Source: Dactylorhiza incarnata (lineage: Eukaryota > Streptophyta > Magnoliopsida > Asparagales > Orchidaceae). From it: a stretch of 64,000 bases of DNA. The DNA is taken from NCBI GenBank assembly GCA_033032865.1, contig JAWHQI010000040.1:12011001-12075000 (forward strand). The letters run 5' to 3'. Position numbers and translations under genes: made by a program. This document shows positions 13,068 to 61,200 of the stretch, piece after piece. The notes beneath the pieces are model-generated. The model did no database searches. It had not been told where the DNA came from and worked only from the letters and a program-made list of their open reading frames with translations. Within the stretch, counting starts at the first letter, position 1, and each line of letters opens with the position of its first letter.

Positions 13068-13461
13068 AACGATTTCTTTCCCCGGTCTTAGGACCGTACT
13101 TTTGGTATTTTTGTGTGCTTGTGATGATTTTGGTGCAATGAGAGTCCGCTCACGTTGGAAGGGACAATTGATATCCTTTAATGAGGGTGATTGATAAAAT
13201 CAACCTGCTTTGATACCAATTGAAAGGAGAGTTTTAGTTATTATATATGTTAAAACTCTTGTTTAAGTTTTGTTTTAAAATAAATAAGTGATATATATAA
13301 ATATATATGAGTTTGTTGTAAGAGTAATAAGCACAAACAGTGAGGGTGCAAAGAATAAACAACAAAAGAAATAAGACACAACAAATGAGCACATCCAGAT
13401 GACACAAAGAAATATAGTAGTTCCCAAAAAATTTGGGTACGTCTACTCTTCTACCCACTGG

Positions 13462-13640
13462 TAGGAATCCACTAGGAGGTTGTTGATAAGGTGCCATCAC
13501 ACCAAGGTGGTTTTGATAAGGTGTTCACACACCAGGTGAGCTGTTGATAAGGTGCTCTAACCAAGATGCAGGTTTTTGCTAAGGTGCCCTGTCACCGGGA
13601 GTTAACTTTTGAAGGGAGTTATAACCCTGTACAAGAGGTG
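13462..13640 (-). repeat. Hairpin-type repeats in the U5 part of LTR D
   Basis: On the minus strand four to five units of about 30 bp each form a GGTG-loop-CACC stem followed by TTAKC, for example GGTGTGTGAACACCTTATC and GGTGACAGGGCACCTTAG. The same array is in the other LTR near 16185-16360. It lies downstream of the TATA box and so would be in the RNA. Confidence 0.65.
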
Positions 13641-14004
13641 GAAAGGAATAAAAAAACAGAAAGGTTTGTTGTTCTTCTCTGTATGAGAAGACTCTTGAAG
13701 ATCCTGATTTGAAGTTGAATGGATCTTGATGAAGATGTTGAAGAGCTCCCCCTGTCTGATGTAAATTGATGACAGTTCTGGAGTTCTCTTTTCTTGATTG
13801 TACAAACACTCCTTTCTCCTTATGCGCAGTGATGATCCTGAGCAAATGGTTGTGATTGGTGTCTCGGGATATATGTGATCTGCAAGAAGATGTTAGCAAA
13901 AAGAAGATATACAAAGATTGATCTGCTTCTTTTTGTATCTGTGTGTTCTCTATCTATATTCCTATTTCTCTCTGTCTATTACTATGTATTTTCTGCTCTT
14001 CTCT

Positions 14005-14412
14005 TAATATATATAATCCGGAGAAGGCTTTTTGAATTCTTGCCGTAAATAAGGAAAGAGATAAAGTCTCCTTAATTTGATTCCTTGGGAAGAGGAGTTT
14101 CCGTCTTTGACTCTTCTGCAAACGGCTATAAACTTTATTGCCTGCAACGGCTATATCAGAAAAGCATGTATATAATAATGTTAGTCCAGCTGTATAATAA
14201 GAATATTGCTGACAACATTTTTCGTCGAGCGCTGTTCTGAAGGAAATTTGTCGACCGTTGGCTGGCTTGAATTGGTCGAGCGCCGTTCAGAGAATGCCTG
14301 GCCGCTGAGATTATTCTGACTAAATTCGTCGAGTGCTGTTCTGATAGAAATTTGTCGACCGCTGGCTGGCTTGAATTTGTCGAGCGCCGTTCGACATTCG
14401 TCGAACGCAGAG
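14005..14412 (-). promoter_or_regulatory. TATA box and dyad cluster in LTR D
   Basis: The minus strand has a TATATATTAAG-type TATA box at 14005-14018. Upstream of it, 14218-14412 carries repeated TCGTCGAGCGC, TTGTCGACCG and TTCGTCGAACGC motifs. The copy in the other LTR lies at about 16720-17125. Promoter role inferred. Confidence 0.55.
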
Positions 14413-14577
14413 AGCTTATATTATTTTCTTATATTTTCTCCGATTCGATCGCATCATATTGATGTTTTCTTAGTTTTCTTACTTAAGGAAAATAATCTAA
14501 GTTATGATGTGTTTTAAGATGGAAACTTAAATCTTAAATATGAATCCTAACTCAAATCAAAAGCTAAGGTTCCAACA

Positions 14578-15684: not shown

Positions 15685-15871
15685 AAATAATTTAATTCTA
15701 ATTTGTCATATATCAAAACTATCCAAATTACATAAAGGTGGATCTGAAATTTAAAAATCTGCTAGTGTCATTTGGAAAAATCTTTTTACAACAAAACAAA
15801 TAAGAACTAAGGTGATCTTTGTGATTTCAGGTGTTAGCCTGTGTGCAAAAACAACTTCCTCAGATACCAAT

Positions 15872-17292
15872 TGAAAGGGACAATTGATATCCTTTGATGA
15901 GGGTGATTGATAAAATCAACCTGCTTTGATACCAATTGAAAGAAGAGTTTTAGTTCTTATATATGTTAAAACTCTTGTTTAAGTTTTGTTTTAAAATAAA
16001 TAAGTGATATATATAAATATATATGAGTTTGCTGTAAGAGTAATAAGCACAAACAGTGAGAGTGTAAAGAATAAACAACAAAAGAAATAAGACACAACAA
16101 ATGAGCACATCTAGATGACACAAAGAAATATAGTAGTTCCCAAAAAATCTATGTACGTCTACTCTTCTACCCACTGGTAGGAATCCACTAGGAGGTTGTT
16201 GATAAGGTGACCTCACACCAAGGTGATTTTGATAAGGTGTTCACACACCAGGTGAGCTGTTGATAAGGTGCTCTAACCAAGATGCAGGTTTTTGCTAAGG
16301 TGCCCTGTCACCGGGAGTTAACTTTTGAAGGGAGTTATAACCCTGTACAAGAGGTGGAAAGGAATAAAAAAAACAGAAAGGTTTGTTGTTCTTCTCTGTA
16401 TGAGAAGACTCTTGAAGATCCTGATTTGAAGTTGAATGGATCTTGATGAAGATGTTGAAGAGCTCCCCCTGTCTGTTGTAAATTAATGATAGTTTTGGAG
16501 TCCTCTTCTCTTGATTGTACAAACACCCCTTTCTCCTTATGCAGTGATGATCCTGAGCAAATGGTTGTGATTGGTGTCTCAGGATATATGTGATCTGCAA
16601 GAAGATGTTAGCAAAAAGAAGATATACAAAGATAGATCTGCTTCTTTTTGTATCTGTGTGTTCTCTATCTATATTCCTACTTCTCTCTGTCTATTACTAT
16701 GTATTTTCTGCTCTTCTCTTAATATATATAATCCGGAGAAGGCTTTTTGAATTCATGCTGTGAATAAGGAAAGAGATAAAGTCTCCTTAATTTGATTCCT
16801 TGGGAAGAGGAGTTTTCGTCTTTGACTCTTCTGCAAACGGCTATAAACTTTATTGCCTGCAACGGCTATATCAGAAAAGCATGTATAGAATAATGTTAGT
16901 CCAGCTGTATAATAAGAATATTGCTGACAACATTTTTCGTCGAGCGCTGTTCTGAAGGAAATTTGTCGATCGTTGGCTGGCATGAATTTGTCGAGCGTCG
17001 TTCAGAGAATGCCTGGCCGCTGAGATTATTCTGACTGAATTCGTCGAGTGCTGTTCTGATAGAAATTTGTCGACCGCTGGCTGGCTTGAATTTGTCGAGC
17101 GCCATTTGACATTCGTCGAACGCAGAGAGCTTATATTATTTTCTTATATTTTCTCCGATTCGATCGCATCATATTGATGTTTTCTTAGTTTTCTTACTTA
17201 AGGAAATTTATCTAAGTTATGATGTGTTTTAAGATGGAAACTTAAATCTTAAATATGAATCCTAACTCAAATCAAAAGCTAAGGTTCCAACA
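15872..17292 (-). repeat. 5' LTR of Copia D, with adjacent primer site 15863-15871
   Basis: 1421 bp. On the minus strand it ends CCCTTTCA and is followed by ATTGGTATCTGAGG, the primer site. A second ATTGGTATC preceded by TTTCA occurs 65 bp inside the LTR (15928-15941), so the end of this LTR seems to have absorbed a primer site and leader segment. Confidence 0.88.
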
Positions 17293-19258: not shown

Positions 19259-20218
19259 TTAAAATTTAATGTCATTTGGATGTAAGGGAAATTTGGTGTG
19301 AATATAACATAACTATGTAGTATTAAATATACATGTGTAAATCAACTTAAATGGACCCAAGTTTTGGGTAGCATGTCAATCAGATCTAATATAGTACATG
19401 GTTAAAATTTAAGGTCATTTGGACCTATGCATGTTGGTTTATCCCACATGCATGTGTAAGAGAAATTTGGTGCGCATATAGCATAACCATATAGTATTAG
19501 ATTTACATGTGTAAATCAACTCAAATGGACCCAAGTTTTGGTTAGCATGTCAATCAGATCTAATTTAGTCCATGGTTAAAATTTAAGGTCATTTGGACCC
19601 ATGCATGTTGGTTTATTCCACATGCATGTGTAAGAGAAATTTGGTTGCATATAACATAACCATGAAGTATTAGATTTACATATGTAAATCAACTCAAATG
19701 GACCCAAGTTTTGGGTTGCATGACAATCAGATTTAATTTAGTCCATGGTTAAAATTTAAGGTCATTTGGACCTATGCATGTTGGTTTATTCCACATGCAT
19801 GTGTAAGCGAAATTTGGTGTGTATATAGCATAACCATGTAGTATTAGATTTACATGTGTAAATCAACTCAAATGGAACCAAGTTTTGGGTAGCATGTCAA
19901 TCAGATCTAATTTAGTCCACGGTTAAAATTCAAGGTCATTTGGACATATGCTTGTTGGTTTATTCCACATGCATGTGTAAGGGAAATTTGGTGTGCATAT
20001 AGCATAACCATGTAGTATTAGATTTACATGTGTAAATCAACTCAAATGGACCCAAGTTTTGGGTAGCATGTTAATCAGATCTAACTTAGTCCATGGTTAA
20101 AATTTAAGGTCATTTGGACCTATGCATGTTGGTTTATTCCACATGCATGTGTAAGGGAAATTTGGTGTGCATATAGCATAACCATGTAGTATTAGATTTA
20201 CATGTGTAAATCAACTTA
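19259..20218 (+). repeat. 174-bp tandem array in T1
   Basis: About 5.5 copies. GTCATTTGGA recurs at 19271, 19414, 19588, 19761, 19934 and 20109; after a shorter first unit the spacing is 173-175. Units contain CATAACCATGTAGTATTAG, GTGTAAATCAACTCAAATGG and CATGCATGTG. Copies are about 90 percent alike by eye. No coding frame. Confidence 0.93.
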
Positions 20219-20559
20219 TCTTAACCCAATTTATGGTGGCATGACAACAAGACCATGAAAGTGCCCTAGTTAGTGGTTGAGCCCAATTGGACTCTTGTAT
20301 ATGAGTGAAATTTCACATGCCAAAATATAGGTGATAAAGGGTGAACAATAAGGCTCTTAAGTAACAATATTTTGAGGATTTAAAGGTTTTCCCTTGGTCA
20401 ACTTTCATGAAATTTGAAACATGTACTTAGGATCATAGGGCAATACTCTATAGTGAAAATCATTAAACTTTGGGTTAATTTCCCTAGGAAAGTTGAATTC
20501 ATATGATTTGGTCACGTAGACCCCAAGCGAGTAATTATATGGTCAAAGCTTACTGAAAT

Positions 20560-22700: not shown

Positions 22701-23616
22701 TTGAGTTGACACACTTGAACAAAGGGAACTAACAAAAGGTTTGTACGTACAGAGTCGTGTGCGTGAGTTGCATCATTGCATTGCACATCATAACATAATA
22801 TATCATCATTGCACAACTAAGACCTCATCGTATAAATTAGTATGGGTTCTTTTATACGATGAGTTTACTTCTCGCCAGATCCCTTAGCTTACGTGTTTGT
22901 GTGTGTATACACATAAGTTAAGGTTACTTTCATAGCTGCTCTAATTGTTTCTTTACTTGCTCTAATTTACTTTATAACTACTCTGGTTAACTTTTCTAGC
23001 TGCTTAGACACTTTTATAACTGCGTGCGTATACTCACTTTGACGCTCGTTTATATACTGCTCGGTTTCATAGTAGCCATTGATTTATTATGATAGAACTG
23101 CTATATAAATCCATGTCACCTGTTTGCTTTTCTATTACCCCTTGTTGTCCTCCGCTTCTTCCTTCCGCCAGTGTCTAGGAGTCACCGGGGGAGGGGACAT
23201 GGAATTTGGCTTAGTCTTTTAACTAACGGTCGGTGGACAACATCATTTTAGGAATCGATATACCGGAGTAGCAGGACCTCATTTAAAAGATTAGGACAAG
23301 AGAGCGTGACAAGATGGAGCAGCCCGTACCAGCAGTAGCCACAATAGATATGGATGTAAATGTTTTTGAAACTTCTGCATGAGCATGAGTGAACCTGTAG
23401 TGAGGATATTGATGTACTGGGCACAAGCCCCTTTTTATTTTAGTACTTTCTGTTGGGAATATTTCCCTCAATGTTCCCATAATTTGAAGAGGCATCACTC
23501 ACAATGCTAAGTACATATTGTATTTGATAAACCCTATTTTGCATCAGGATTATGCAGGGTTAAGATATTCCAAGTATTGGAATAAGATCAGTGGTTTGCT
23601 GACAAAACTGCTGAGA

Positions 23617-23937
23617 AGAACTCAATGTCTCAACGGAACCGCTGAGACGAGGCCAGGAGCCGCTGAGAAGAGGTCTGCCTCAGTTGAGATGCAAATTGAC
23701 AAAATCCACTAAGAGGACAATCTATCTCAGTGGATTCGCTGAGACCAAGACAGCTAAACCGTTGAGACAGCAGTCTGTCTCAGACCAACCACTGAGACAG
23801 ATTCAAATCAGAAAGACGACACTGGTGGGTCCTGCTTTTGGCGCAAACTACTGTAAAGGGTGGATAAAGTATTCTATCCACTTCCAAAGTGTCAGGGCCC
23901 CTTTCCAAGAGCCATTGAAGAGGAATGAAGTATAAAA
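23617..23937 (+). promoter_or_regulatory. Dyad cluster and TATA box in LTR A
   Basis: 23617-23815 contains repeated CGCTGAGAC and its inverse GTCTCAGCG in exact and decayed forms. The TATA box TATAAAAG is at 23931-23938. The 3' LTR has the same at 35599-35793 and 35917-35924. The motif cluster recurs in the internal promoter of this element (32236-32402). Confidence 0.62.
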
Positions 23938-24249
23938 GAACAAGTTAGAGCACTTTCAAAACAACCTGTGGTGTTGAAAAGAAGAGATCCATTTTTCACT
24001 ATTCCATTGACGGCTTTCAATCTTTCTCTCCTTTTGCTATCTGAACCAGAAAGAAGACACAAGGAGAGAAGATAGCTCTTTTATTCAGAAGAGCAAGAAG
24101 ATCTTTTCTCCTCTACTGAAGAGAAGGATCAGAAAGAAGCAAGGACTGAAGTTCATATTCAGCCAAGCTTCAAAGAAGCACTAGCTGTGTAGGAACAACA
24201 TAAGACATCATACCACTGTTGTCATCTGTTGTAAGCTTAACATTTACTC

Positions 24250-24546
24250 ACTGTAGGAACTGTGAAGTTCTGAGTTTGTAAGGCATATTGCCTGAGTTGT
24301 AGGGTTGGTAAACCTGAGCTGTAGGGCTGTTTAGCCTGAGATTTGTAAGGCTGTTGAGCCTGAGCTGTAGGGCATTCTGCCTGAGAAGTAGGGCTTCTTG
24401 ATAGGCCTGAGGTAGGAGGTCAAGGTGATCTCTGAGGTGTAGGAGTGAGAGCACTCTGAGTGGTAGGGCTGGTTAGCCCGAGGTAGGGCTTGGAGCAAGC
24501 CTGAGAGATCCTGAGGGATCTGTGTTGTAAGCTCTAGGAGCTGAGA
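24250..24546 (+). repeat. Array of about twelve small hairpins in the R/U5 part of LTR A
   Basis: Units of 22-26 bp with form TTGTAGG-stem-loop-stem-CTGAG. Stems differ from unit to unit but stay complementary: GAAC/GTTC, GGCA/TGCC, GGTT/AACC, GGCT/AGCC, GAGTG/CACTC, GGCTT/AAGCC, AGCTC/GAGCT. The other LTR has the array at 36236-36535, where several changes are also pair-preserving or make G-U pairs. Confidence 0.8.
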
Positions 24547-24764
24547 TTGGAGGAGTTTGCCTTATCTAACACACTGTTAGAAAGGTGTAGAGGGAAAGTG
24601 GACTACCCATAGACACACTGTCTTGGGGAACCACTATAAACACTTGTGTGTTTTCTGTGTGTGCTTGAACTTTTACTTACTAGCTAGCAATATTTATGTA
24701 AAACTCAAAGAGACCTATTCACCCCCCCTCTAGGTGAATTAGACTACATACCTATAAACTATTA

Positions 24765-24778
24765 GGTAGTATCAGAGC
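24765..24778 (+). other. Primer binding site of Copia A
   Basis: GGTAGTATCAGAGC directly after the LTR: the initiator-Met tRNA type site TGGTATCAGAGC with small changes. Confidence 0.75.
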
Positions 24779-26459
24779 GAGGTTGGTCAAAAGGACTTAA
24801 CAGTCTGACCGGGTCCTACATTGGTGTAATAAGATCTGAATCCAATGGCCACCAATGGAGTTCAGAAGGAGATGGGGTCTATGGAGCTTCCAATATGCAA
24901 AAAGAAACCTTTGGCATTTGAAAGCAAAGGGTTTGGCTTTTCATGGAGGCCTTAGACCCTAAGATTTTTATTACTGTCTAGGAGGGCCCCTTTCTTATCA
25001 CAAAGCCCTCCACCATTGATCCTACTAGGCATGTAGGTAAGTCATACACTGAAATGATAAGGGATGAGATAACATTGGCAACAATGGACAAAAGAGCTCA
25101 AAACATTATAGTCAATGCTATTGATGATTCAACATTCTAGAACTTGGTACACTGTGAGACTGCCAAGGACATGTGTGATACAATAATAGTATACATGGAA
25201 GGGACTGAAGAGGTGAGGGATGATAGGAAATACCTTCTTAATTAGGAATATGAAGCCTTCAGGCAGCAGAGCCTGAAATGCATAGCTGATTGCTATGAAC
25301 GATTCTTCAGGATAGTAAATGAGTTGAGGACCTATGATAAGACCTTCACTCATTATGAGCTAAATGACAAATTCCTAAGATCTCTAACTAGAGACTGGGA
25401 TACCAAGATCTGTGCCATCGCGGAGGTGGCAAAGCTGGGTGAGACTCCTCCCCACACTTTGTTTGGAAAGCTGCTCTCTTATGAGATGCAGCTATCAGCC
25501 ATGAAAGAGGAGGACACTTCCTCCAGGCCTCATGCAAGGGAAAGAATTGTGGCGCTCAAGGCTGAAGGCTCTAAGAAGAGCAAGACAAGGATGCCTACAC
25601 CTCCAAGGAAGGATGTTGGCTCAGAAAATTTTGAGCCCAACTCATTTGATAACAGCTCTTCTGATAAGGAGTTTGCTGCCTTCTCAAGGCAGTTCAAGAA
25701 GATGATGAAGAGGAAGCAGTGGAAGAACAAGCCTTCCTTCTCCTCACATCCCAGGAAGGATCTCAACAGATCAGACAAGCAGCACCCCAAAAGGGACAAG
25801 TATGATTCTAAACATGTTAACCATGTTTCATCTAATGTGATTTATTATTGATGCAGTAAGCCTAGACATGTCATTGCTGACTGTCCAGTCAAGAGGAAGG
25901 AGAAGGGCGATAAGAAATCTTATCGCCAGAAGGGAAGGAAGGTAGAAAAGTCCCTCCTAGCCAAGAAGAACAAGATATGGAGTAAATCTGAGTCATCATC
26001 CTCAGATTCAGATGATGAAGAAGAAGCCTATATTGAGCTGTTTGCAGTTGAGGAAGATGAGGACTTTCCTGCTGCAAAGGTGGGCATCAGGGCCCCTCTA
26101 TCACATTTAGACAGTGATATAGAGGAGGATGAAGATGCAAGAGAACACCTGTTGGGTATTGTGTCCACAATCACCTTGATTTGAAGATGTCCCCTAGTAA
26201 ACTAAAATGAATTGTATTTGTATTTGATGACTTTTGTTTAGATGTGTTATGACAGGCCTTAATGCTAAGTGCTCACCAAAGTCAGGTTGCAATGGATCAC
26301 CAAACACAGTTCTAGACAATGTAATCCCTCATTGTATAGAACAAAGTGTTGGTCCATGTGTAATCTCTCTTTTGGGGTGCACTTCACATGCTCATAACTG
26401 AAGGCTTTCAAGGTTGAGGAGTGGAGCAGGTTTTCAGAAGAAAAGAAAAATTTATGCTG

Positions 26460-26925
26460 AGTCAATTCGTCGAGATGACTCGGGTCATTCCGACGAATCC
26501 CGACGAATCCAGACAGAAGACCTTTGTCTTGGTTTAGAAGAAATTTCTGAAGCCAAGTCCATTCGTCGAGATGACTCGGGTCATTCCGACGAATCCCGAC
26601 GAATCCCGACGAATGCTGACAGAGGTCATTTTGGCTGAGTTGTGAAGAAATTTCTGCAGCTAAGTCAATTCGTCGGATGTTCTCGTGTACTTCCGACGAA
26701 TCCCGACGAATGGTGACAGACAGTGTTTTTCACGGGTTGCTCAGTCTTTCCCTGTGGCCAAGTCAATTCGTCGGATGTTCACGTGAAGTCTCGACGAATG
26801 ACGGACAGACGGATTTCAAATCTTTGTTTCATTTTCAAAAATTAGGGTTAGCCACCATGAACAGTACACGTGTCGCCTCTCCCTTCTTTGTCGCAAGAGC
26901 CGTTGAAGTCCTCCCTATAAATAAA
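26460..26925 (+). promoter_or_regulatory. Dyad cluster and TATA box in the solo LTR
   Basis: 26460-26805 has repeats of AATTCGTCGAGATGACTCGG, TCCGACGAATCCCGACGAAT and TTCGTCGGATGTTC, in both orientations. CCTATAAATAAA lies at 26914-26925. Confidence 0.6.
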
Positions 26926-27322
26926 TCCTTATTTTAGGGCTAGAGAAGTATTCTTAAAAAGAAAAAAATTGATCCAAAATCTCTCAGCCGACAGTTCAGA
27001 AAAGATAAAAAGTCGATCTCCCTTCTCTTTTGCAAAACAAGAATTCTGAGACCTAACATTCACTGCTCAAGATCCCTTCTCCTTTGTTGTTAGAGATTTC
27101 TCAGAAGAAGGCCTTTGATCTTTTTGCTGCTCTCAATTTTTGAAGATTATTTCAAGTAAGTCAAAGGGCCTATTCAGATCTGATTAGCCAAGTCTTCTCT
27201 CTTCCCCATCTTTCAAGTGCCAAGCTTTCCTTCAAGGTTGAGAAGAAGACTCAGTGTTCAAGATCTGAAGTTAATCTCTTTAGAGGTTAAGAAGAAGTTT
27301 TGTGTTTCCTTATCTTTTCTTT

Positions 27323-27490
27323 TGTAGGAGTTTTCACTCCGAGATTATTTGTAGGAGTTGTTTACTCCGAGTTGTAGGAGTTGTTTACTCCGAGTTGTAG
27401 GAGTTGTTATACTCCGAGTTGTAGGAGTGGTATACTCCGAGTTGTAGGAGTTTTGACTCCGAGGTGTAAGATTAGTTATAATCTGAGATT
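27323..27490 (+). repeat. Array of seven small hairpins in the solo LTR
   Basis: Six units TTGTAGGAGT-loop-ACTCCGAG (loops TTTC, TGTTT, TGTTAT, GGTAT, TTTG) and a seventh, GTGTAAGATT-AGTTAT-AATCTGAG, whose stem has changed on both sides. Flanks match those in LTR A. Confidence 0.82.
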
Positions 27491-28959
27491 AGTGAAGTAG
27501 CCGAGTCTAGCCTCGAAGTGCTAGATAGGCGAGGCGGGAAAGAGGACTACCCACATCGGGGAACCTCTATAAAATCCTTGTGTCTGTGCTGTGGTTGTTT
27601 GTTTGCTTTTCTGTGTTAATTTTTTAATTCCGCATTAAGACATAGAATCCACCTATTCACCCCCCTCTAGGTGATTTAGGCCGCAACTAGATACTTTCAA
27701 CACCATGACTTAATGGCCATTACAGATGATGATGAAGATAGTCAGGACATTCCTGACAAGGTACCTACTCTTCCCCCTTCTTCTGAGTATGAGTTAATGC
27801 CAGACTCTGAACCATGCTCATCAATTGATGAAAATGATTCAGAATCTGAAGTGGATGTCAATCAATTGATTGACAAGTATGATGCTTTGTTGTATGCTCT
27901 GAAAATGAGCAAGAAGCTGGCCAAGAGGCAAGCTCAAGAAATTGCTTCCAATAAGTTGGCTAAGCAAGATTGCACTGAGTCACCTACCTTGGTGGCTCAG
28001 AGGAGTAGAGAGATAAGCCAACTCAAGGGGATAATTGTTGTCCAATTGAGCACCATTTCCCAAAAGAACAAGGTCATCAAGGACCTTGAGGATTAGCTTC
28101 TCAAAGAAAAGAGCCTAGTGGCTCAATTATCCAAGCCCAAATCAGTGCTTCCAATTATTGACACCTTTTCTTCTCAAACCAATAGAAGAGGACTAGGGTT
28201 CAATAAAATGGAAGTGGGTGAAGGAAGCGGAGAAAAGAGCAATGCTAAGGCTAAGCCTCATACCACCTTTCAAAAGGTGTTACTTCCCTCTAACAGCTAT
28301 GACCATGACAACATGTATGGTCACTGGAAGAATGAGAGTTCCTATAGGAAGGAAAACACTCCTTTCCATAGTAGAAGAAAGGGCATGGGGATGAGTGCTA
28401 TGAAGGCTCCCCATGAAGAAATTCAAATGGCCCATTCTGGACCATTTGATTTTGGTACTTCAGCTCCATCATTCAAGAGTAGGGAAACAAGCTCTTCCAA
28501 GTCCGTTCCAGCAAAGCATCTGGCTGCTGTCAAACCTGTAGACATGCCTAACAGTTCAGTGTCTGATGCCATCTAATCTTGCCTAGCTTCCAAGCCAAGG
28601 CAAGCTGATGTCATTAAGACAAAGGCTGCTAAGACTGTCCACAGGTTAACCTTCAGCCAGATCATTGCTGAAAGGAACAAGAAGAATGTTGTTGTCTCCC
28701 CTCCTGAACACAAGCAGATTAATGCTCATTGCACCACAAGGAATGTTCAAAAGAGAAGATACAACATTCATGAATGTTGGTGCTGTGGTAAGGTGGGACA
28801 CTTTGCCATAAATTGTTGGCACAATCCCAATGTGCCAAGTGCAAAAAGGATCTTTCCTTCAAAGGTTGCAGCAGGTGTGAAATCATCCTTTCATGCTATC
28901 AAGAGCCTAGGACCCAAAATTAATTGGGCTCCTAAGGGTAATTAAATTACTTATTACAG

Positions 28960-32618: not shown

Positions 32619-35050
32619 ATGGCGCCAAAGATGGCAAAAGAGCTACATGAAGGCTATAAGATAGTTCGAAATGCATTCATGCATGCTCCTGCAGAGATAA
32701 GAAAAGTGATTCAACTTCTATCAGACCAAGGACTGGACTATATGCTATTTGAGCCAACAACGATTCTCAGAACCGAAGTTCTGGAATTCTTCTGCAGTGC
32801 AAAGATGTCCTCTTCAAATTCCTCTACCAAAGGAAGGATAGGGAGTGACAAGATAAAAATCTCTCCTAAGAAAATGGAGAAAGCCCTTCAGCTGACCTCT
32901 TGTAGTGAAGAAGAGGAAGATGCAATTTCTGAAAAGGATAAAGACCTAGCCTTACAATGGTGTGAATATAATGATGCCAAACTTGGCTCACTAAAAAGGA
33001 AGTTCTTTAACCAGAGAGGCAAATTGCTCTCTGATATAGTTGGAAAAGCCATATTGTGTAAGCCAGGATCACATGACACCATATCCAAACACATGTTTGA
33101 GTTGATGTCAAGAGTCATTCTGAAGAAGAAGACATCATTTGCTGAAGTGATATTTCAAAGGATAAGGGAATGTTTGCAGGCCCCCAACCTAGGCAGAATT
33201 CTCTCCCTCTACCTCTTGAACACCTATCCATAAAAGTTTGACAAGTCAAAAGGAACAAACCTCCATTACTTAAAGAGAATGGTAATAAAGACCCTGGACA
33301 GATTCTCAAGGGTTCTCCCCATGAGCCAACCTTCAGAGCCCAAAGGGAAAAGAAGAGCATAGTCAAAGGGCTGAGAAAAGCCAGGATATCCTGCTCTGAC
33401 TCTGAATCAGAGGCAGATGGCAATGTCCCAGTTATGGACACTCAGGAACCAGCCAGTAGTCCTCCAAAGGATCAGGAAGGAGAACATGACACTGCAGGTC
33501 ATGTAGGCCATGCTCTTGAGAAAGAGCATGAAGAGGAAAAAGATGATGATGTTAACAAAGAGCATCAAAAGGATGAAGATGCTGCTGCTGAGGTCATGTC
33601 AGAAGGACATGAAGAAGAACACACTACTTGTGATTCCTCCAATCCTGCCACTACTGATAAAAGTGTGCAGATCATACACTCCTCCTCAGAAGAACATGAG
33701 GATGATGAATACAATGCTCCTGTTGATCTTCAAGGTGAGATTGACTTATTTATATTCAATTTAGAGCAAAGAATTAAATTAATCCCTCCTGAACCTACAG
33801 ACTACTGGGGAGATGATGAGGACAATGGTGATCCCTAATCTGAGGGGGAGCACTCCTGACAAGGATAATGATGATGCTCCAAGTGAGGGGGAGCAATCAA
33901 GAGATGTTGAAGAGGCAAGGAAAAAGTATGCAGATTATAAGGTTGTTGCTCAGCCTAGTGATCCAGCTGAGGGGGAGCAAATCCTTGCTCAGGCTGAGGG
34001 GGAGCTCAATATAGTAGTTGATGTCCCATCCACATCAGCAATATCCCATGAACAGCTGCTCAGCTCCATCAATATAGTCATTGAAAGTTAGATGCTTTCA
34101 ACAAAGAATTACATTGACAGTTCAATCATGCATGTAAAGGCTGAAATCATGGCTGAAGTAAAAGAAATTAAGGAAGAGACTGCATTCCTCAATAAACAGA
34201 TGACTAAATGGTTTGATCTAACAGAGAAAACAATGGTAGCTGAAATTATCTGAGAGAGACATTTCTTATGTCAAAAATTATGTAAGCAAGACAGATGAGG
34301 TTACAGAAAAAGCCTCCAACCATATACAAGAATATGTCTGGAATACAACCACTACTATGATCAGTGGGGCTGAGAAAATGAAGGATGAGATGAAGTCTGC
34401 CTTGGAAAATGCCTTCCAGAGCATCTCAGGTTCTGTAGTAGCTGCCTCCCAGTCCCTAGAAGCTAACATAATTGAAGCAGCCAGAAAGGGGGAGGTGGCC
34501 AATGTTGAGACCAACTGAATTGGCTCTCCAAGTGTTGCAAGGAACCAGTATTGCCCTAAACCTGCCCCTGCTGGATAATTACATGAAAGAAGACTTTGAC
34601 TTTGAGGGGCAGGCTAAAATTGCTCAAAATATTCAATTGGCAAAGAAAAGAAAAGGAGAACAAGTAATGCTAGCTGAGGAATTTATGGCTAAGCAAAGGG
34701 AAGAGCAAGGAAAAGATCCATATTTTGAGTATTGGTGTGAGGACTCCAAGAGTATAATTCTGAATGCCTGGCTCAGCCATGGTCAAGTATGCAAAGACAT
34801 TGACAAGATCTATCCAGCTGAAGAGTGGATTAAACATCTGGAGAGAAACACTCACAGGGATAAAATATTCAAGGAAAATCTAGTGAGAAAGAATAATCCA
34901 AAAAGGATGCCCTCCAGGTATATTCCAAAGCCATACATATATTTCAAAAGACAAGAGAACAAGAAGAAGCTAGCTGAGATTGCTGCTGCTGCTAAAGGGA
35001 AGGAAGTTTTTGATGACAAAGCTGAAAACTCCAAGAGAAGAAAGACTTAA
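32619..35050 (+). pseudogene. Extra ORF after pol in Copia A (unassigned protein)
   Basis: Starts ATGGCGCCAAAG (MAPKMAKELHEGYK), like the ORF of element B. The N-terminal domain (32619-33233) has TEVLEFF, GKLLSDIVGKAILCKPGSHD, EVIFQRI and APNLGRILSL, each with a counterpart in B; it ends in TAA. After a shift comes an acidic linker (33434-33838, rich in EE, DD and SS), a segment with GEQ repeats (33813-34091), a broken coiled-coil region (34092-34510) and a basic C-terminal part (34472-35050) with SKSIILNAW, AEEW, RYIPKPY and a KKKLAE tail. I see no signal peptide or membrane segment, so the envelope-like label used for some SIRE third ORFs is not supported. The function is unknown. Confidence 0.8.
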
Positions 35051-35435: not shown

Positions 35436-36737
35436 TGTTGGGAATATTGCCCCCAATGTTCCATTGATTTGAAGAGGCATCACTCACAATGCTAAGTATA
35501 TATTGTATTTGATAAACCCTATTTTGCATCAGGATTATGCAGGGTTAAGTTATTCCAAGCATTGGAATAAGATCAATGGTTTGCTGACAAAACCGCTGAG
35601 AAGAACTCAATGTCTCAGCGGAACCACTGAGAAGAGGCCAGGAGCCACTGAGAAGAGGTCTAGCTCAGTTGAGCTGCAGATAGACAAAATCTGCTGAGAG
35701 GACTATCTGTCTCAGCGGATCCGCTGAGACCAAGACAGCTAAACCGCTGAGACGACAGTTTGTCTCAGCCCAATCGCTGAGACAGATTCAAATAAGAAAG
35801 ACGACACTAGCGGGTCCTGCTTTTGGCGCAAACATCTGTAAAAGGGTGGATAAAGTATTCTATCCACTTCCAAAATGTCAAGGCCCCTTTCCAAGAGCCG
35901 TTGAAGAGGAATGATGTATAAAAGAACAAGTTAGGGCACTTTCAAAACAACCTGTAGTGCTGAAAAGAAGAGAGCCATTTTCACTGTTCCATTGACGACT
36001 TTCAAGCTTTCTCTCCTTCTGCTATCTGAACCAGAAAGAAGACACAAGGAGAGTTGATAACTCTTCTATTCAGAAGAGCAAGAAGATCTGTTCTCCTCTA
36101 CTAAAGAGAAGGATCAGAAAGAAGCAAGGACTGAAGTTCACATTCAGCCAAGCTTCAAAGAAGCACAAGCTGTGCAGGAACAATAGAAGACATCATACAA
36201 CTGCTGTCAATTGTTGTAAGCTTAAAATTTACTCACTGTAGGAACTGTGAAGTTCCGAGCTTGTAAGGCATATTGCCTGAGTTGTAGGGTTGGTAAACCT
36301 GAGCTGTAGGGCTGTTTAGCCTGAGATTTGTAAGGTTGTTGAGCCTGAGCTATAGGGCATTCTGCCTGAGAAGTAGGGCTTCTTGATAGGCATGAGGTAG
36401 GAGGTCAAGGTGATCTCTGAGCTGTAGGAGTGGGAGCACTCTGAGTCGTAGGGTTGGTTGGCCTGAGGTAGGGCTTGGAGCAAGCCTGAGAGATCTCGAG
36501 GGATTTGTGTTGTAAGCTCTAGGAGCTGAGATTGGCGGAGTTTGCCTTATCTAACACACCGTTAGAAAGGTGTAGAGGGAAAGTGGACTACCCATATACA
36601 CACAGTCTTGGGCAACCACTATAAACACTCGTATGCGCTTGAACTTTTACTTACTAGCTAGCAATATTTAAGTGAAACTCAAAGAGACCTATTCACCCCC
36701 CTCTAGGTGAATTAAACTACATACCTATAAACTATCA
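35436..36737 (+). repeat. 3' LTR of Copia A
   Basis: 1302 bp, TGTTGGGAAT to AAACTATCA. It aligns end to end with 23451-24764, with several percent difference, mostly transitions and small indels. Confidence 0.93.
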
Positions 36738-47077: not shown

Positions 47078-48587
47078 TGAAAGAAATCGTTGTCTACCTA
47101 AATCACCTAAAGGGGGGGGGGGGGGGGGGGAGGTGAATAGGTGATCTCTACTGCGATTGCGGAATAAAAATTAAGTACACACACAACAAGAAAGATCACA
47201 GCACAGAGACACAAGATTTATAGAGGTTCCCCAAGGTGGGTACTCCTCTCTCCCGCTTCGCCTATCTAGCACTTCGGGCTAGCGTCAGCAACTTCGCCAA
47301 AACTTGGATTTATCAATAAATCCTACACTCGGAGACAACGACTCCTACAAACTCGGAGAACAACCTCTCCTACAAAAGCACTCGGAGATAAACTCCTACA
47401 ACTCGGAGCAAACTACTCCTACAATATAACTCGGAGAAAAATCTCCTACAAGAATCAAATAGAGTTTGAAATAAAATACTTCTATTAAACCTCAACAGAG
47501 ATTGACTTCAGATCTTAGAAAAACTGAGTCTTCTTCTTCCTTGAGAACGAAAGCTTGGATCTTCAAAGATTTGGAAGAAGGGAAACTCGGCAAACCTGAT
47601 CTGAATAGGCCCTTTGATTTTCTTGAAAGGATCTTCAAAAATATGGAGCAGCAAAAAGATCAAAGGCCTTCTTATCTGAGAAATCTCTAACAGCACTGAA
47701 GAACGAGTCTTGAGGGCGCAGAAGTTAGATCTCAGAAAAACTTGTTCAGCGAGCAAGGAGGAAGACGACTGGGTTCTTCTCTTTCTATCGGGTTGAATAA
47801 TAATGATTATTGTGTTTGCCCTAAAATAAAAGATTATTTATAGGAGGAACTCCAACAGTTAGGGCGACAGACAAGGAATGATCGACACGTGTGCTGCACA
47901 TGGCGGCCAACCCTAATTTTCAAAAACGAAACATATTTTTGAAATCCGTCTGTCCGTCATTCGTCGAGACTTCACGTGAACATCTGACGAATTGACTTAG
48001 CCATTGAAAAATACTGATCAAGGCTTGAAATCTGTCTTCTGTTTTCATTCGTTGGGATTCGTCGGGAGTTCTCAAGAACATACAACAAATTGACTTAGCC
48101 GCACAATTTCCTTCACAAAGCTGCCTTTTTGGCTTCTGTCAGCATTCGTCGGGAGTTCATGAGAATATACGACGAATGGACTTGGCCGCAGAACTTTCTT
48201 CTTCAAACTGGAAATTTGGCTTTTGTCAGCATTCGTCGGGAGTCATCGGGACTTCACGTGACATCTCGATGAATTAACTTAACAAAAATTCCTTTTCTTC
48301 TGAAAACCTGCTCCACTCCTCAACCTTGAAAGCCTTCAGTTGTGAGAATATGAAGTGCACCCCAAAAGAGAGATTACACATGAACCAACACTTTGTTCTA
48401 CACAATGAGGGATTACATTGTCTAGAACTGTGTTTTGTGATCCATTGCAACCTGACTTTGGTGTGAACTTAGCATTATGACCTGTCACAACACATCTAAA
48501 GAGAGTTCATCAAATACATACTCAATTCAATTTAGTTCACTAGGGGACACCTTCAAATCCAGGTGATTGTGGATACAATACCCAACA
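47078..48587 (-). repeat. 3' LTR of Copia B
   Basis: 1510 bp, TGTTGGGTAT to CTTTCA on the minus strand. Contains a G19 run at 47112-47130. The hairpin array is near 47325-47455, the TATA box near 47834-47842 and a dyad cluster at 47950-48275 that has lost several CpGs compared with the other LTR. Confidence 0.95.
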
Positions 48588-48770: not shown

Positions 48771-51308
48771 TCATGCTTGGTCTTTGCCTTTCAGCTTTCC
48801 AAAAATTCTGTCCACTGCCTCAGCTCTCTTTCTCTGTTCAGATTCCATTCTCTCAAAGAATGCCTTTGGCTTGGGCCAATATCTATCAGGAGCAGTCTCT
48901 TTAGATCCACTTGTCTTGAAATGAATTCTCCTTTCAGTTGTCCTTTTCTTGAACTTATCCCATTCCTCCTGACTTTAATGTTTAGTGACACTTTCATTTT
49001 GCCTACTGACTAAGTTGAAAGCTGTAAGAATGATATCCTTTGAAGAGGGACTCCAGCTTTCTTGGAAATTTCTTGGAGGAGGCATATCATAGAATTCTCT
49101 GATCTTCTTGTGAGGATTAGACCTTTTTGCAGAAGGTTTATCACCAAAGATCTTCCTTTTCAAAGATTTTTCAGAAGATTCAGGAGCTTTGGAGCTTTCA
49201 AGCACTGGATCATCCCAGAATTCTTGATAGGAGGAAACTGGGATGTCTCCTATAGCAAAATCAAGATCCTCAACAGGAAAATGAGAAGAATTTGGAGCAC
49301 TTGGACCTGGAAAACTTGAAGAAGGAACATCTGGCATCTTGTCCACCACAGTGAGTCCAAGCATGCCTGCAACTTCTTTGAACAGCCAGCTTGTAGATTC
49401 ATGAGTGTACCAATTTACATCTACAACATTTTGTAAAATGTTCTCCTTAAGCTCTTGCATCTTGAAAAATACATTTCCATCCAAATCACTAACTTTACCA
49501 TCCAAGTCATTCACTTTACTGGCACTTTCTTCTATTTTAGACACAATACTCTCCTCCCCCTTTATGACATCTTCATGTAGGAGGGTATAGAGTTTGGCCA
49601 GTTATCTTTCAACTTGATCATCCAGAAAAGTAAGCCCTTGATCATGAGAAGCTCTGAGAGCTGTTTGAGCAGAATTCAGATGAAGAACATCTTCACCAAC
49701 CTGATGCAAGTTCTTTAGAGCATGTCCAACTGCCTTATTGGTGTGGTCCAATGCTTTTCCTGCTTTTGACATCCAGGCTTCTTGATCACTCTTGAATTTG
49801 CCCATTTCATGTCTTATCTGAGCCATTTCCTGCCTCAAAGCACTATCAACTTTATCAATTTTCTGATAAACTGATTTGATGGACTGATCAAAATGCTCTG
49901 TTTGAGCTTGCAGCAAAGTTGAAATTGACTTGAGCAAAGAAGATTGAGAGCTCTCTCCAGTTTCAAAATCATTAGGAGAGACTCTATCAGCTACAAAACT
50001 AGTAGACTGTGCTTGCTTATCAAGCACAGTTGCTCTTGGAGATTGTCTCAAAGAACTTTCTGGAGGGGGCAAGAGCATCACAGGAGGGACTGCAGATTCA
50101 CCCATAAATGTGTCTTCCTGTTCTTTCTCCCCCTTAGTCAAAGACATCTTCTTAGCTGACTCCAACTGAGCACTAAAACTGCCCATCTCCATAGAATCTG
50201 ATTTCTCAGAAGGAACAGATTCAGGATCTGCCAAGTCTTCACTATGTACTGAATTATAAGCAAACTCTGCAGGGGATCTTCTTGAGTCCTCTAACATAGC
50301 TGCTTCATCTTCAGCAGCAGATTTCCCTTGACCTTCTAGGTCAGGAACAGTATCAGGAACAGCAGGACTGACTGGATCAACATACACTGGATCAGGATGA
50401 ACTGGATCAATTTCACTGGGAGGAATTTCCTTTGAAGCAACACTACTTTCAGCAATGTCTCTTGGGGTTGGAAACTCCCCCTCAACATGTTCACCTCTGC
50501 CTTGTTCAGGAGCTGTACTGGGTCCACTACCCCTTGAGGGTTGACCTTCTTCATGAGTCCTATTCTCATTTTGCACAGGATCCTCATCACCACTAACAAC
50601 AATTTTGACTCCACCTTTTGGAATGACCCTTTCCCATTTGGAGAAAATAGAGGAGTTGATTTTCTTAGTGTGATGGATGGGTATACCTCTTCCAAGATTA
50701 AAAAAATCTGGATTACTACCATTCAGCAACAAACTAATAATTCTTCCAAAATTTGGGGCATGAAAGCTGTCTTTAATTTTCTCAAAAAGAACTTCACCAA
50801 AATTAAAATTCTTTCTACAAATAATAGCTATGTGAATCTTAAAGGCTTCTTCAGATAGGTAGTCATGTGAGCCTACCTTGCACAATAAGACTTTTCCCAA
50901 AATATCACACAGAAGCTTACCTCCGTCATTCATGAATTTTCTTCTTATCTTTGAACCTTCATCAAGAATGCCACAGAATCTTTTGGCCTGGAGAAAATCT
51001 TCAGCAAACACTTCTTCTGATTCGACTCCAGGCATCCTCAAAATCCTGTTGATGCCACTAGCTTTTAAAACTATTTTACAAGACCTGATGCTGCTCTTTA
51101 TCTTCTTGCCTTGACAAGAAATTTTTGCATTTCTGTAGAACTCAAGAACGTCTTGTTCGAGAATTTTAGCCGGTTCTTCCAAGACATAGCTGAGCCCGGC
51201 AACATCAAGCATCAAGATAATGTTTCTGAACTCATCTGAAGCAGTTCGAAAGCTACCTCGCACCAGCTCTCCACCAGAATGCAGACCTCCAGCGGCTTTG
51301 GGCGCCAT
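48771..51308 (-). pseudogene. Extra ORF after pol in Copia B (unassigned protein), two stops
   Basis: One frame of 846 codons from MAPKAAGGLHSGGE to a TGA at 48771-48773, broken only by TAG at 49602-49604 (codon 569) and TAA at 48975-48977 (codon 778). Residues 1-205 form the domain shared with A and C: EQDVLEFYRNAKIS, GGKLLCDILGKVLLCKVGSHD, FGEVLFEKI, APNFGRIISLL. Residues 210-450 are acidic and rich in S, P and E. Residues about 455-625 look coiled coil (QSIKSVYQKIDKVDSALRQE, VNDLDGKVSDLDG). The tail is basic (KRKIFGDKPSAKR, SKDIILTAFNLV, RYWPKPKAFFERM). No signal peptide or membrane span seen. It sits where SIRE elements have an envelope-like ORF, but the content argues for a soluble, possibly nucleic-acid-binding, protein. 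Confidence 0.82.
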
Positions 51309-57079: not shown

Positions 57080-57317
57080 TGAAAGAAATCGTTGTCTACC
57101 TAAATCACCTAAAGGGGGGGGGGGGGTGAATAGGTGATCTCTACTGCGATTGCAGAATAAAAATTAAGTACACATACAACAAGAAAGATCACAGCACAGA
57201 GACACAAGATTTATAGAGGTTCCCCAAGGTGGGTACTCCTCTCTCCCGCTTCGTCTATCTAGCACTTCGGGCTAGCGTCGGCAACTTCACCAAAACTCGG
57301 ATTTATCAACAAATCCT

Positions 57318-57448
57318 ACACTCGGAGACAACGGCTCCTACAAACTCGGAGAACAACCTCTCCTACAAAAGCACTCGGAGATAAACTCCTACAACTCGGA
57401 GCAAACTACTCCTACAAAATAACTCGGAGAAAAATCTCCTACAAGAAT
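57318..57448 (-). repeat. Hairpin array in the R/U5 part of LTR B
   Basis: On the minus strand five units TTGTAGGAG-loop-CTCCGAG, one with an extended stem (GGAGA/TCTCC), and a last unit GTGTAGGATTT-loop-AAATCC with both arms changed. Loop lengths vary from 4 to 8. Confidence 0.78.
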
Positions 57449-57825
57449 CAAATAGAGTTTGAAATAAAATACTTCTATTAAACCTCAACAGAGATTGACT
57501 TCAGATCTTGGAAAAACCGAGTCTTCTTCTTCCTTGAGAACGAAAGCTTGGATCTTCAAAGATTTGGAAGAAGGGAAACTCGGCAAACCTGATCTGAATA
57601 GGCCCTTTGATTTTCTTGAAAGGATCTTCAAAAATATGGAGCAACAAAAAGATCAAAGGCCTTCTTATCTGAGAAATCTCTAACAACACTGAAGAACGAG
57701 TCTTGAGAGCGCAGAAGTTAGATCTCAGAAAAACTTGTTCAGCGAGCAAGGAGGAAGACGGCTGGGTTCTTCTCTTTCTATCGGGTTGAATAATAATGAT
57801 TATTGTGTTTGCCCTAAAATAAAAG

Positions 57826-58280
57826 ATTATTTATAGGAGGAACTCCAACGGTTAGGTCGACAGACAAGGAATGATCGACACGTGTGCTGCACATGGCGGC
57901 CAACCCTAATTTTCAAAAACGAAACATATTTTTGAAATCCGTCTGTCCGTCATTCGTCGAGACTTCACGCGAACATCCGACGAATTGACTTAGCCATTGA
58001 AAAATACTGATCAAGGCTTGAAATCTGTCTTCTGTTTTCATTCGTCGGGATTCGTCGGGAGTTCTCGAGAACATACGACGAATTGACTTAGCCGCACAAT
58101 TTCCTTCACAAAGCTGCCTTTTTGGCTTCTGCCAGCATTCGTCGATATTCGTCGGGAGTTCACGAGAATATACGACGAATGGACTTGGCCGCAGAACTTT
58201 CTTCTTCAAACTGGAAATTTGGCTTCTGTCAGCATTCGTCGGGAGTCATCGGGACTTCACGTGACATCTCGACGAATTAA
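57826..58280 (-). promoter_or_regulatory. TATA box and dyad cluster in LTR B
   Basis: TATAAATAAT on the minus strand at 57826-57835. 57945-58280 holds repeats of TTCGTCGGGA, TTCGTCGAGA, TACGACGAAT and ACTTCACGTGA. Same order as in the solo LTR. Confidence 0.6.
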
Positions 58281-61200
58281 CTTAGCAAAAATTCCTTTTC
58301 TTCTGAAAACCTGCTCCACTCCTCAACCTTGAAAGCCTTCAGTTGTGAGAATATAAAGTGCACCCCAAAAGAGAGATTACACATGAACCAACACTTTGTT
58401 CTACACAATGAGGGATTACATTGTCTAGAACTGTGTTTGGTGATCCATTGCAACCTGACTTTGGTGTGCACTTAGCATTATGACCTGTCACAACACATCT
58501 AAAGAGAGTTCATCAAATACATACTCAATTCAATTTAGTTCACTAGGGGACACCTTCAAATCCAGGTGATTGTGGATACAATATCCAACAGGAGCACTAC
58601 AACCACCCCACCCGAGCTTTGTTTTTGAGCTAGGTGGCTGGTCGTGCAGAGCATTACTCACCAGGGCCTCCCTGGATCATTGGGGAGCACCACCTTGCCA
58701 GATAGGGCATAACGACCCTCTCCGGGAATCCTCAAGGCGACAACACTACCAAAGAATAGAGCTCTGGTGGTGCCCATGTTTTAATTCCTCTTTTTCACTC
58801 CTCCCGTCAGTTGCTGGCAACGTTCGGTCATCGGAGCACTGCCAAAAGGAGTTCCCATCTTCAGCGAACCTACAACAGGTTGTGGATTGCCATCGGGTGG
58901 TCAGCCGACGGTGGCAGAGGAACAATAATCCTCTGTCTCCACCGACAATCATCGGTCATCTGATCTCGATTAGGAGATAAGATGACCCAAATAACCTTAT
59001 ACTCCTCGATTAATGATTAACCTGACAATAGATCCATGCCATATCCGCAATGGAGCCGCTGTTAGTTTCCTATCCGACTCAATCTCAGCCCATGATTATG
59101 CTTTAATATTGGTGTTGATTAATTTAAGCTAAAATCTTAGGAATTAATTTGGGGGGGATGTCTTAGTGAGTGTCTTATACTAATATTTGTAGAATTTCTT
59201 AAGGTATCTAAAAATGATTATTCCATTTTTTTATAAAATCAAATACTGTTTTTAATTATCAAAACAATGGTATTTTGATCAATTTAAATATTTTTTCAGC
59301 CTTGAATAATTCTAGAAATTCAAGAGTGCATTATCGGCCCTTGGCCCCCAAGGTAAAAAATGCCTAATATTTCACGAAGAGTCAATAAAAATTATTTAAA
59401 AAATATCGGGCTCAGTTTGCAAAACTCGAACTCCTCGGGGCGATAATAATTTGTTCTCTTCGAAAAAGCTTAATATTTTCTATCGTGGCTTAGTTGTATT
59501 CCAACTTCTAAATTATAGATAATTCAATGAAAGAGAGCTTCGTTAAATAAATTATGAGGTTCGATTGACGAAAAACCCATCAATAGCTGAATTCAAATTA
59601 TCAATACGATGAAAGTCACAATACAAATTAGTTAGACGTCGCTGAGTAGCGTCTTGATCTTATAAATTATGTATAATATAATAAGGCTATCTTAAATAAT
59701 AATCGGGTTCAATTGACATGAAATCCAACAACCACTGAACTCAAATTACACTTAAAATAAGAATCACAAATATGGAATTGTTTGACTCGTAACTATAAGA
59801 CTTTAATTAATACCTTCTCAGAACGGAAATGAGAACTATAAATACCTCCTTGAAATGAAGATTAATCACTTGCTCGCCCTACTTCCAAGGATAAGAACTG
59901 TATGCACTTGAGGAGGTATATTTGGGCTTGCGATGTGATGGAGGGACCTCTAGAACTGGTGAAACCAGGCATATTTTAAAATGTCTCCTTACTTCTTTTA
60001 TTTCATTGCTCCTTATTTACTTGCCAGTTCTGTTTATCTGTTATTGCTCTATTTTGCACTACAACTCTTATAATAGTCATATTTAGAGTTAACCTATAGA
60101 TGAGATATTCCTCCGAGGTTAACCATAAATGATGTCGGATCTCGATCGACTCATTTATTATTAGCTAAGTAGTGCGATCGAGTTTAATGTCCTAGTTGTT
60201 TGCACAAATTATTACATTGTTTTGTAATGCAAATGACCGTAGGTTCACCTCAGGGATTTGCTCAGTTTCATTTCACATATATAATGCTTCTTTATATGCC
60301 CTGGATTTAATTATTGTGGTGGGCCAGTCATGCTCACGAGTTGTTCATACTTTAATAGGAAGGTTGACAACTCTTTGGTACTAGGGCGTGAGAACTTCGG
60401 GGAACTACTTCGTATGTTATGATATTTCCTTGCTGGGTCCCTTCCCTGGTTATCCAGTTTATATTATCACAGGATGTCGTTCACATCCCTGAGTACACCA
60501 TATTGTATGCTAGGTCCTATGTATTGAGGTATGAACATACCTAGAAGTGGAGGGACCAACCAGTGACACCGTGTTGCCATGATGGTGAGGCACATAGGAT
60601 TAGCTACCCCGCAGGAAGTGAAGATCAAACCATATTGACATAAGGAGTTACAACGGGTTATGAGTACCTGTCTTATATGCTTGCAAGTTAATTATGTAAT
60701 AACATATTAGATGCTTAGAATGCTTTTACTTGCCAACATTTATTACCTGCTCAACTTCTGCATTTACTTCCTACATATATTTCTATTTGATGCTTAGTTT
60801 ATTTATGATTTGAATATTATATAATCTTGCAGAGGCTCGCTCTTGTCCCCAGTCCTTAATGTTTTGGGGAGGGGGTGAGAATTCCACTAGTCGTTGACTA
60901 ATGATGTTGTTGCTCACCTTTTTAGGAGACATCCCATCCCGAGGCCCTGCTAGAGATTGAGGACATACTTGTGCTAGTGCCAGCACTCACCGTATAGTAG
61001 TTGCAACCGCATCGCCACCTACCTTTAGAAATGTGAGAAACTAGATAGTGGCTAACAATGAGATGTTTTGTACTTTGTATGCTTTCCCAATTAAGGTTGC
61101 ATGTACGACCCCACACTTCTATTTATAAATTATGATGCGACCTTACTTTATGCATCTAGTCTTTTCTGAGTGTTACTTTTGCCTGTGAATGAATCTAGTT

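Follow-up and report, generated by a model that had tools for sequence, protein, structure and literature searches.

Arrays of covarying hairpins in the long terminal repeats of Sirevirus-type retrotransposons of the orchid Dactylorhiza incarnata

Repeated palindromic motifs are known from the long terminal repeats (LTRs) of Sireviruses. The palindromic RM boxes, found 5' of the TATA box, are symmetric and similar to one another, and apart from one exception (Tnd-1) they share a CGG-CCG core (Bousios et al. 2010, PMC2829016). The available part of the same paper places the TATA box itself at about the middle of the LTR. Palindromes with the consensus CACCGGACNNNGTCCGGTG are described as a cis-regulatory region of maize Sireviruses in the available part of PMC10760457 (citing Bousios et al. 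2016), where Sireviruses are also said to reach a large share of a genome (21% of maize). A 64,000-nucleotide stretch of Dactylorhiza incarnata DNA (contig JAWHQI010000040.1, positions 12,011,001 to 12,075,000, forward strand; "the window") contains Sirevirus-type (SIRE-like Ty1/copia) LTR retrotransposons whose LTRs carry arrays of short hairpins. The arrays are real and abundant, their pairing has been kept by selection, and they are distinct from the known LTR palindromes. They very probably represent a selected structure of the sense-strand RNA. A role in Gag binding and packaging is proposed tentatively, as a possibility that falls somewhat short of being probable.

Read in the orientation of the element, each array unit has the form GTA-[RGNNN]-loop-[N'N'N'CY]-GAG, and the arrays lie 3' of the presumed TATA box. 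Five arrays were parsed in the window, with an anchored stem of at least three pairs required of each unit (Table 1). An earlier reading of the letters without database searches (the sequence-only reading) had reported about twelve units in an LTR of element A, and twelve were parsed there, all with anchored, mismatch-free stems of 5-8 bp (G-U allowed). The related arrays that it had placed near 27323-27490, 57318-57448 and 47325-47455 were recovered as arrays Bs, B5 and B3, respectively. Of the constant frame TTGTAGG/CYGAG that it had proposed, GTA and GAG are constant. TTGTAGG is not strictly so, since in 62 array places outside the A type the base before GTA is T in 421 of 501 units, and 48 linkers have a length of 0 nt (GAGGTA).

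Chance is rejected as the origin of the arrays by shuffling of the flank pattern, by a ranking of flank pairs and by a genome-wide control. The flank pattern TGTARG-N8-24-CYGAG has 33 matches in the window against 1.76 expected and a maximum of 5 in 100 shuffles, and all 33 lie inside the five arrays. Of the 3698 three-base flank pairs seen around window hairpins with stems of 5 bp or more, GTA..GAG ranks first (39 hairpins, 36 of them in arrays), and the runner-up, TTT..AAA, flanks 34. The GTA..GAG matches in arrays number 19 with Watson-Crick pairs only and rise to 36 when G-T is added, whereas they remain at 19 when A-C is added. The tandem-unit pattern TTGTARG-N8-14-CYGAGTTGTARG has 15,075 + 15,317 = 30,392 matches in the plant's own 3.27-Gb genome, whereas the backward-read control has 11 + 15 = 26. 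A scan of 23451-24900 against Rfam gave nine weak matches (best 20.3 bits), none at the gathering score, and a known Rfam family is rejected for this interval. Viral contigs scanned for the unit pattern gave three matches, none of them in arrays.

Arrays were sampled from the genome as 103 views of 90 distinct places. For some elements both LTRs are among them, as are 28 copies of the A type; the non-A places come from the first contigs among the matches listed and are not a random sample. The views fall into 11 clusters at 80%, and the largest row contains up to 14 tandem units of one design. The units of this sample were picked by their flanks alone, with no pairing required, whereas the window parse, the window shuffle and tree tests and the flank-pair scan required pairing. 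Of 303 distinct non-A units, 229 have an anchored stem that runs for 4 bp or more without interruption, whereas in 200 re-pairings of the halves this number averaged 70 and never exceeded 90. The 229 stem-bearing units contain 42 different middle stems, and their loop is most often 4 nt and mostly 3-7 nt long.

That the stems change on both arms at once, as the sequence-only reading had claimed, is borne out by covariation above a tree-based null, the test that had been set for its refutation, and above shuffled and slid controls. The set used with the tree null excludes the views L004-L031, wA3 and wB3; 31 of its 303 units have fewer than 14 inner nucleotides, and the remaining 272 were tested. 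The G-test values of pairs 3, 4 and 5 are 288, 451 and 292, respectively, and exceed the maxima of 227, 276 and 200 from 400 tree simulations each. The highest value for any mismatched pairing of a 5' with a 3' column is 141. In a structure-tool count of 60 randomly drawn 22-nt units, covariation was 0.631, against 0.222 (sd 0.024) for shuffled and at most 0.246 for slid alignments, and paired cells made up 88.6% against 66.6%.

Among the 25 window units of arrays A5, Bs and B5, which had been required to pair beforehand, 123 of 125 anchored pairs are paired (112 Watson-Crick, 11 G-T and no A-C); after shuffling of the 3' arms within LTRs, 101.8 were paired on average and at most 113 (5000 trials). 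With an R-scape-like tree null, pairs 3, 4 and 5 have p = 0.002, 0/2000 and 0.11, respectively, in the 25 units; in A5 alone (12 units), p = 0.0025, 0.0015 and 0.0125. Pair 5 thus fails in the larger set, and pairs 1 and 2 are not significant in either. Since insertion, the partner LTRs of the elements have acquired seven single stem-pair changes and no double ones. The double changes therefore belong to the active history of the elements, because partner LTRs are identical at insertion.

The choice of strand rests on G-U and A-C pairs. Between distinct units, pairs 3-6 contain G-U 110 times and A-C 13 times (272 units), and G-U occupies pair 1 in 138 of the 272. The decay of silent copies is expected to produce G-T and A-C about equally at pair 4 of GTAGGAx-N6-yTCCGAG, because its G and its C are followed by the same base, each on its own strand. 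Genome-wide, this pair has 9705 G-C, 1494 A-T, 58 G-T and 61 A-C matches (3, 18, 9 and 7, respectively, in the backward-read controls), which are numbers of copies and not of independent events. With 58 against 61 as the baseline of decay, the between-unit ratio of 110 to 13 is probably not mutational, and it probably reflects sense-RNA pairing kept while the elements were active. The sequence-only reading had proposed selection on RNA or cruciform structure. Covariation and the G-U bias support the RNA, and a cruciform is less likely since the stems tolerate G-T but not A-C, though folding scores do not part the two strands.

Several results weigh against a selected sense-strand structure. 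Most of the 100 listed A-T places at pair 4 are a single unit type, so that even the 1494 A-T matches count largely as copies, and G-T is not commoner than A-C at this pair genome-wide, so the bias rests on the differences between units. In the 272 units, the values of pairs 1, 2 and 6 (29, 40 and 89) are below their null maxima (265, 202 and 185), and that of pair 1 is below its own null mean. Two of the five measures in the 60-unit check were no better than shuffles (double-change pairs, 124 of 500; further pair types, 173 of 500). The window units had been selected for pairing, as noted above, and the 13 B units taken alone are weak, with 79 of 5000 shuffles reaching the observed 63 of 65 pairs. 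Folded as a whole array, the sense RNA of A has z = -1.6 with 8 of 100 shuffles as good, whereas the antisense has z = -3.6. Under local folding, too, z is lower for the antisense strand in 7 of 10 arrays. Local folds with a span of 28 form all 12 units of A5, all 7 of Bs and all 6 of B5, but some units remain unformed in the local minimum-free-energy folds of 7 of 10 arrays (in array L080, 1 of 9). Energy-based folding, whole-array or local, thus gave no preference for the sense strand.

The sequence-only reading had also placed the array in the 5' leader, and this agrees with its position downstream of a TATA-like box. The distance from box to array is about 410 bases in Bs, and in 47 of 65 fully flanked array places such a box lies 80-700 bases upstream of the array. 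A very short R region has been deduced for Sirevirus LTRs (Benachenhou et al. 2013, PMC3601003, in the part available), with which the array would fall in U5. The sequence past the array is conserved. A block GGGGAACC..TATAAA (at most 3 mismatches) lies downstream in 62 of the 65 fully flanked places and begins at a median of 73 nt past the array; its pattern has 13,451 matches genome-wide and none in the control. The polyC integrase signal is present in 59 of these 65 places. Between the array and the LTR end lie two conserved hairpins, namely element ii (CTARY..RYTAG, in 50 of 70 places) and hairpin iii (AGNGG-[ANUA]-CCC..GGG-GAA-CCNCU, in 53 of 70). Both arms of element ii differ between lineages (CTAAC..GTTAG and CTAGC..GCTAG). 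The outer stem of hairpin iii is GTGG/CCAC in 29 and GAGG/CCTC in 6 of 37 distinct sequences, and its internal loop is AGTA/GAA (AGUA/GAA in RNA) in 18 of 53 places. The TATAAA that follows hairpin iii could be a poly(A) signal or a second promoter.

In some sister LTRs that lack this array, the same slot shows a second hairpin design. Fourteen loci of different block types were taken from 100 listed block places with their upstream sequence unread, a choice that was not fully blind, as at least three types (L104, L112 and L114) resembled blocks already seen beside arrays. Arrays of the GUA/GAG design (5 or more units, each with a stem of 4 bp or longer) were found in 5 of the 14 (L104, L110, L112, L114 and L115). 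In 6 of the other 9 (L102, L103, L106, L108, L109 and L111), the second design is present upstream of the GGGGAACC block. It has a near-constant loop CCUUAUCAAA (also given as CCTTATCAAA) and stems of 6 bp in which both arms vary (GAATCC/GGATTC, AGATCT/AGATCT, TGATCT/AGATCA and GAGTCT/AGACTC), and it is represented by 29 distinct matches with a 10-nt loop, some of them out of register. The loci L105, L107 and L113 look by eye like further variants. Folding against shuffles in the six clear loci gave no support to the second design (sense z -1.1 to 0.5, antisense z -1.3 to -3.4), and it is the complementarity of the arms that suggests it.

The elements of the window were assigned from their LTR signals and coding domains. 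Element A has the polypurine tract (PPT) AGGGGGAG followed by AT|TGTTGGG directly before the 3' LTR, the 9-bp primer-binding site (PBS) TATCAGAGC after the 5' LTR, both as in Sireviruses, and a 5-bp target-site duplication (TSD), CTTTC; seven copies of AGGGGGAG occur between its LTRs. The interior of element B encodes copia-type gag, integrase and reverse transcriptase (RT) domains on the minus strand, with rve in 53650-54249 and RVT_2 in 51583-52626, and integrase before RT is the Ty1/copia order. Its PPT ATGGGGAG and PBS TATCATAGG deviate by one and two letters, respectively, from the Sirevirus consensus. With its gag, integrase, RT and LTR signals, element B reads as a decayed or diverged relative. 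The polyC integrase signal of Sireviruses lies near the 3' end of the LTR in A, Bs and B, and RM-like repeats (strings chosen by eye) are also present upstream of the TATA box in A and Bs.

The closest named relatives of the RT fragment of element B (51583-52626, minus strand) come from another orchid, Platanthera zijinensis, with 72-73% identity, and a search of viral contigs with this RT gave no relative. Open reading frames lie 3' of RT in both elements (49605-51308, minus strand, in B; 32619-33230, plus strand, in A), where Sireviruses may have an envelope-like gene; the one in B, and not that in A, matches Transposase_32 (PF20167) below the curated cut-off. Elsewhere in the window, two direct repeats of 1.4 kb (13155-14577 and 15871-17292) are 97% identical and 1.3 kb apart and are perhaps the LTRs of a short non-autonomous element, and 19281-20247 is a satellite-like tandem array whose repeat length is about 174 bp.

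Table 1. Retrotransposon LTRs, hairpin arrays and associated LTR features in the 64-kb window
Feature	Position	Strand	Remarks
5' LTR of element A	23451..24764 (end approximate)	+	92% match to 35436-36735
3' LTR of element A	35436..36737 (end ~36735-36737)	+	LTR comparison, PPT/TSD check
Solo LTR Bs (B-like)	26150..27699	+	nested between LTRs of element A; 5-bp TSD ACACC
5' LTR of element B	57080..58590	-	TSD GCTCC
3' LTR of element B	47078..48587	-	96.6% identity to element B 5' LTR
Array A5	24253..24545	+	12 units
Array A3	36238..36530	+	10 units in parse
Array Bs	27324..27487	+	7 units
Array B5	57296..57442	-	6 units
Array B3	47328..47449	-	5 units in parse
TATAAAAG, presumed promoter TATA box	23931..23938	+	~320 bases upstream of A5
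Element ii, conserved CTAAC..GTTAG hairpin	24565..24581	+	just after array A5
Hairpin iii, AGTGG-ACTA-CCC..GGG-GAA-CCACT, running into TATAAA	24597..24640	+	

In the proposed mechanism, the genomic RNA of the Sirevirus would carry each array in its 5' leader, 3' of the first TATA box and 5' of the PBS, as a series of short hairpins, and the 3' R region would contain the array too if polyadenylation takes place past it. The unit keeps a constant base, 5'-GUA-R-G / C-Y-GAG-3', with an upper stem that mainly must pair and a nearly free loop. A fixed base, a stem kept for pairing only and a free loop together make the pattern of hairpin-base recognition, not of loop recognition or kissing. Dimerisation through the loops, which the sequence-only reading had listed among the possible functions, is not favoured, because the loops vary in length and sequence; no common palindrome was seen in them, although no separate test was run. 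A protein would recognise the constant base of each hairpin, and the row would provide multivalent binding, as the tandem copies, up to 14, suggest. The likeliest partner would be the element's own Gag, and the array would then tag the genomic RNA as cargo to be packaged in virus-like particles.

The presence of a different design in the same slot of sister LTRs fits partner-specific recognition. In an extended and rather doubtful form of the proposal, the rows of GUA-stem-GAG and of stem-CCUUAUCAAA-stem would be lineage-specific address tags in the leader, placed before the same conserved hairpin. Each would be read many times by the Gag of its own lineage, perhaps via a bulged-G fold where the hairpin begins, and every element could thereby package its own RNA in the presence of thousands of competitors. 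The stem sequences would be free to diversify because pairing alone is required.

Other explanations give the array a part in the making or the fate of the transcripts. As a far-upstream element for poly(A) control, it would present hairpin-borne UUGUA, which corresponds to CFIm-type sites, ahead of the LTR poly(A) signal TATAAA and a GU-rich tract. The T that precedes GTA in most units agrees with this, as do the GGGGAACC..TATAAA block past the array and the GU-rich sequence that follows it in the LTRs inspected. The constant part, however, is GUA and not UGUA, with no base at all in the 48 empty linkers; no TGTA was seen by eye within in-register units of the second design, and UGUA alone would not need covarying stems. 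A UGUA/CFIm signal is weakened as a general answer by the constancy of GUA, and poly(A) control is considered unlikely. The array could also belong to an RNA-fate switch like that of BARE, which has two TATA boxes with separate RNA fates (PMC3735527 and PMC12786077, in the parts available). Transcripts from the first TATA box would carry the array, resist scanning translation and be kept for packaging, whereas those from the TATAAA after hairpin iii would lack it and be translated. The regular occurrence of the TATAAA-ended block suits such a switch, but the same TATAAA may be a poly(A) signal, and a block to scanning would need no constant GUA/GAG base; this explanation, too, is thought unlikely.

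A host-side reading, in which the hairpins act towards RNA-binding or silencing factors of the host as a bait or a shield, is judged quite improbable. Dicer-like cutting needs stems longer than 5-8 bp, so the stems of the units are too short for it, and a target of the host should not be kept unless the element gains. The palindrome-rich LTR regions of maize Sireviruses are nevertheless small-RNA hotspots (PMC5311732 and PMC10760457, in the parts available). Pairing might also be kept by mutation without selection if RT switched templates on the hairpins and copied one arm to the other. A compensatory double change would then be possible in one event, and the lack of double changes after insertion means that any such process acts during replication. 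Template switching should yield Watson-Crick arms, yet G-U is common (at pair 1 in about half of the units), and the constancy of GUA and GAG next to loops that drift would be left unexplained, which makes it very unlikely. Least credence is given to palindromes that act as DNA, as cis-regulatory boxes or cruciforms extending the known repeated motifs of Sireviruses. Sirevirus LTRs are indeed known for palindromic repeats (PMC2829016), and the antisense strand folds as well as the sense strand, but the stems of the arrays differ while their asymmetric flanks persist, and G-U prevails over A-C between units although decay produces both alike.

Selected RNA hairpins remain the preferred reading, and to our knowledge little is known about how plant retrotransposon RNA is recognised for packaging. 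With many stem variants among tens of thousands of copies, the units amount to a natural, ready-made mutational scan, which defines the constant recognition base and provides a G-U versus A-C yardstick for selection and decay. If the array is a packaging tag, a comparison of the two designs would reveal how related elements avoid mixing up their RNAs.

The arrays resemble the RM boxes (PMC2829016) as high-copy palindromic motifs of Sirevirus LTRs. They differ in lying downstream of the presumed TATA box, in their asymmetric GTA/GAG flanks and in their unit-specific stems (42 middle stems in 229 units), and an identity with the RM boxes is rejected on position, flanks and stem variety. The available text of Bousios et al. 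2010 (PMC2829016) describes no array downstream of the TATA box, and that of the Sirevirus LTR models of Benachenhou et al. 2013 (PMC3601003) describes no such array. The palindromes of maize Sireviruses are likewise clustered in LTRs with predicted RNA structure, but they are other palindromes, and no array of covarying stems is described in the available parts of PMC5311732 and PMC10760457. The sequence-only reading knew of no earlier description, and none was found in the literature on Sirevirus and SIRE hairpins, palindromes, leaders and packaging, in a search that covered mainly open papers. BARE is a plant copia element for whose LTR two TATA boxes and for whose RNA dimerization and packaging signals are mentioned, whereas no hairpin array is described for it (available parts of PMC3735527 and PMC12786077).

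A literature search on terms for the bulged-G motif found nothing. The bulged-G (sarcin-ricin or loop E) motif is AGUA/GAA. The array units resemble it in having GUA/GA beside a stem, and the internal loop of hairpin iii reads AGUA/GAA in part of the places; the units have GAG and not GAA, and the GUA/GA core is in every unit by the definition of the search. A bulged-G fold at the hairpin base is a lead. CsrB-type small RNAs are bacterial and contain a row of similar hairpins that binds many protein copies, with recognition in the loop; the likeness lies in the hairpin row with many protein copies, and no homology is claimed. The retroviral packaging signal psi consists of a few leader hairpins of different kinds. 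Its small hairpins precede gag within the 5' leader, as those of the array would, whereas the array contains up to 14 copies of one design.
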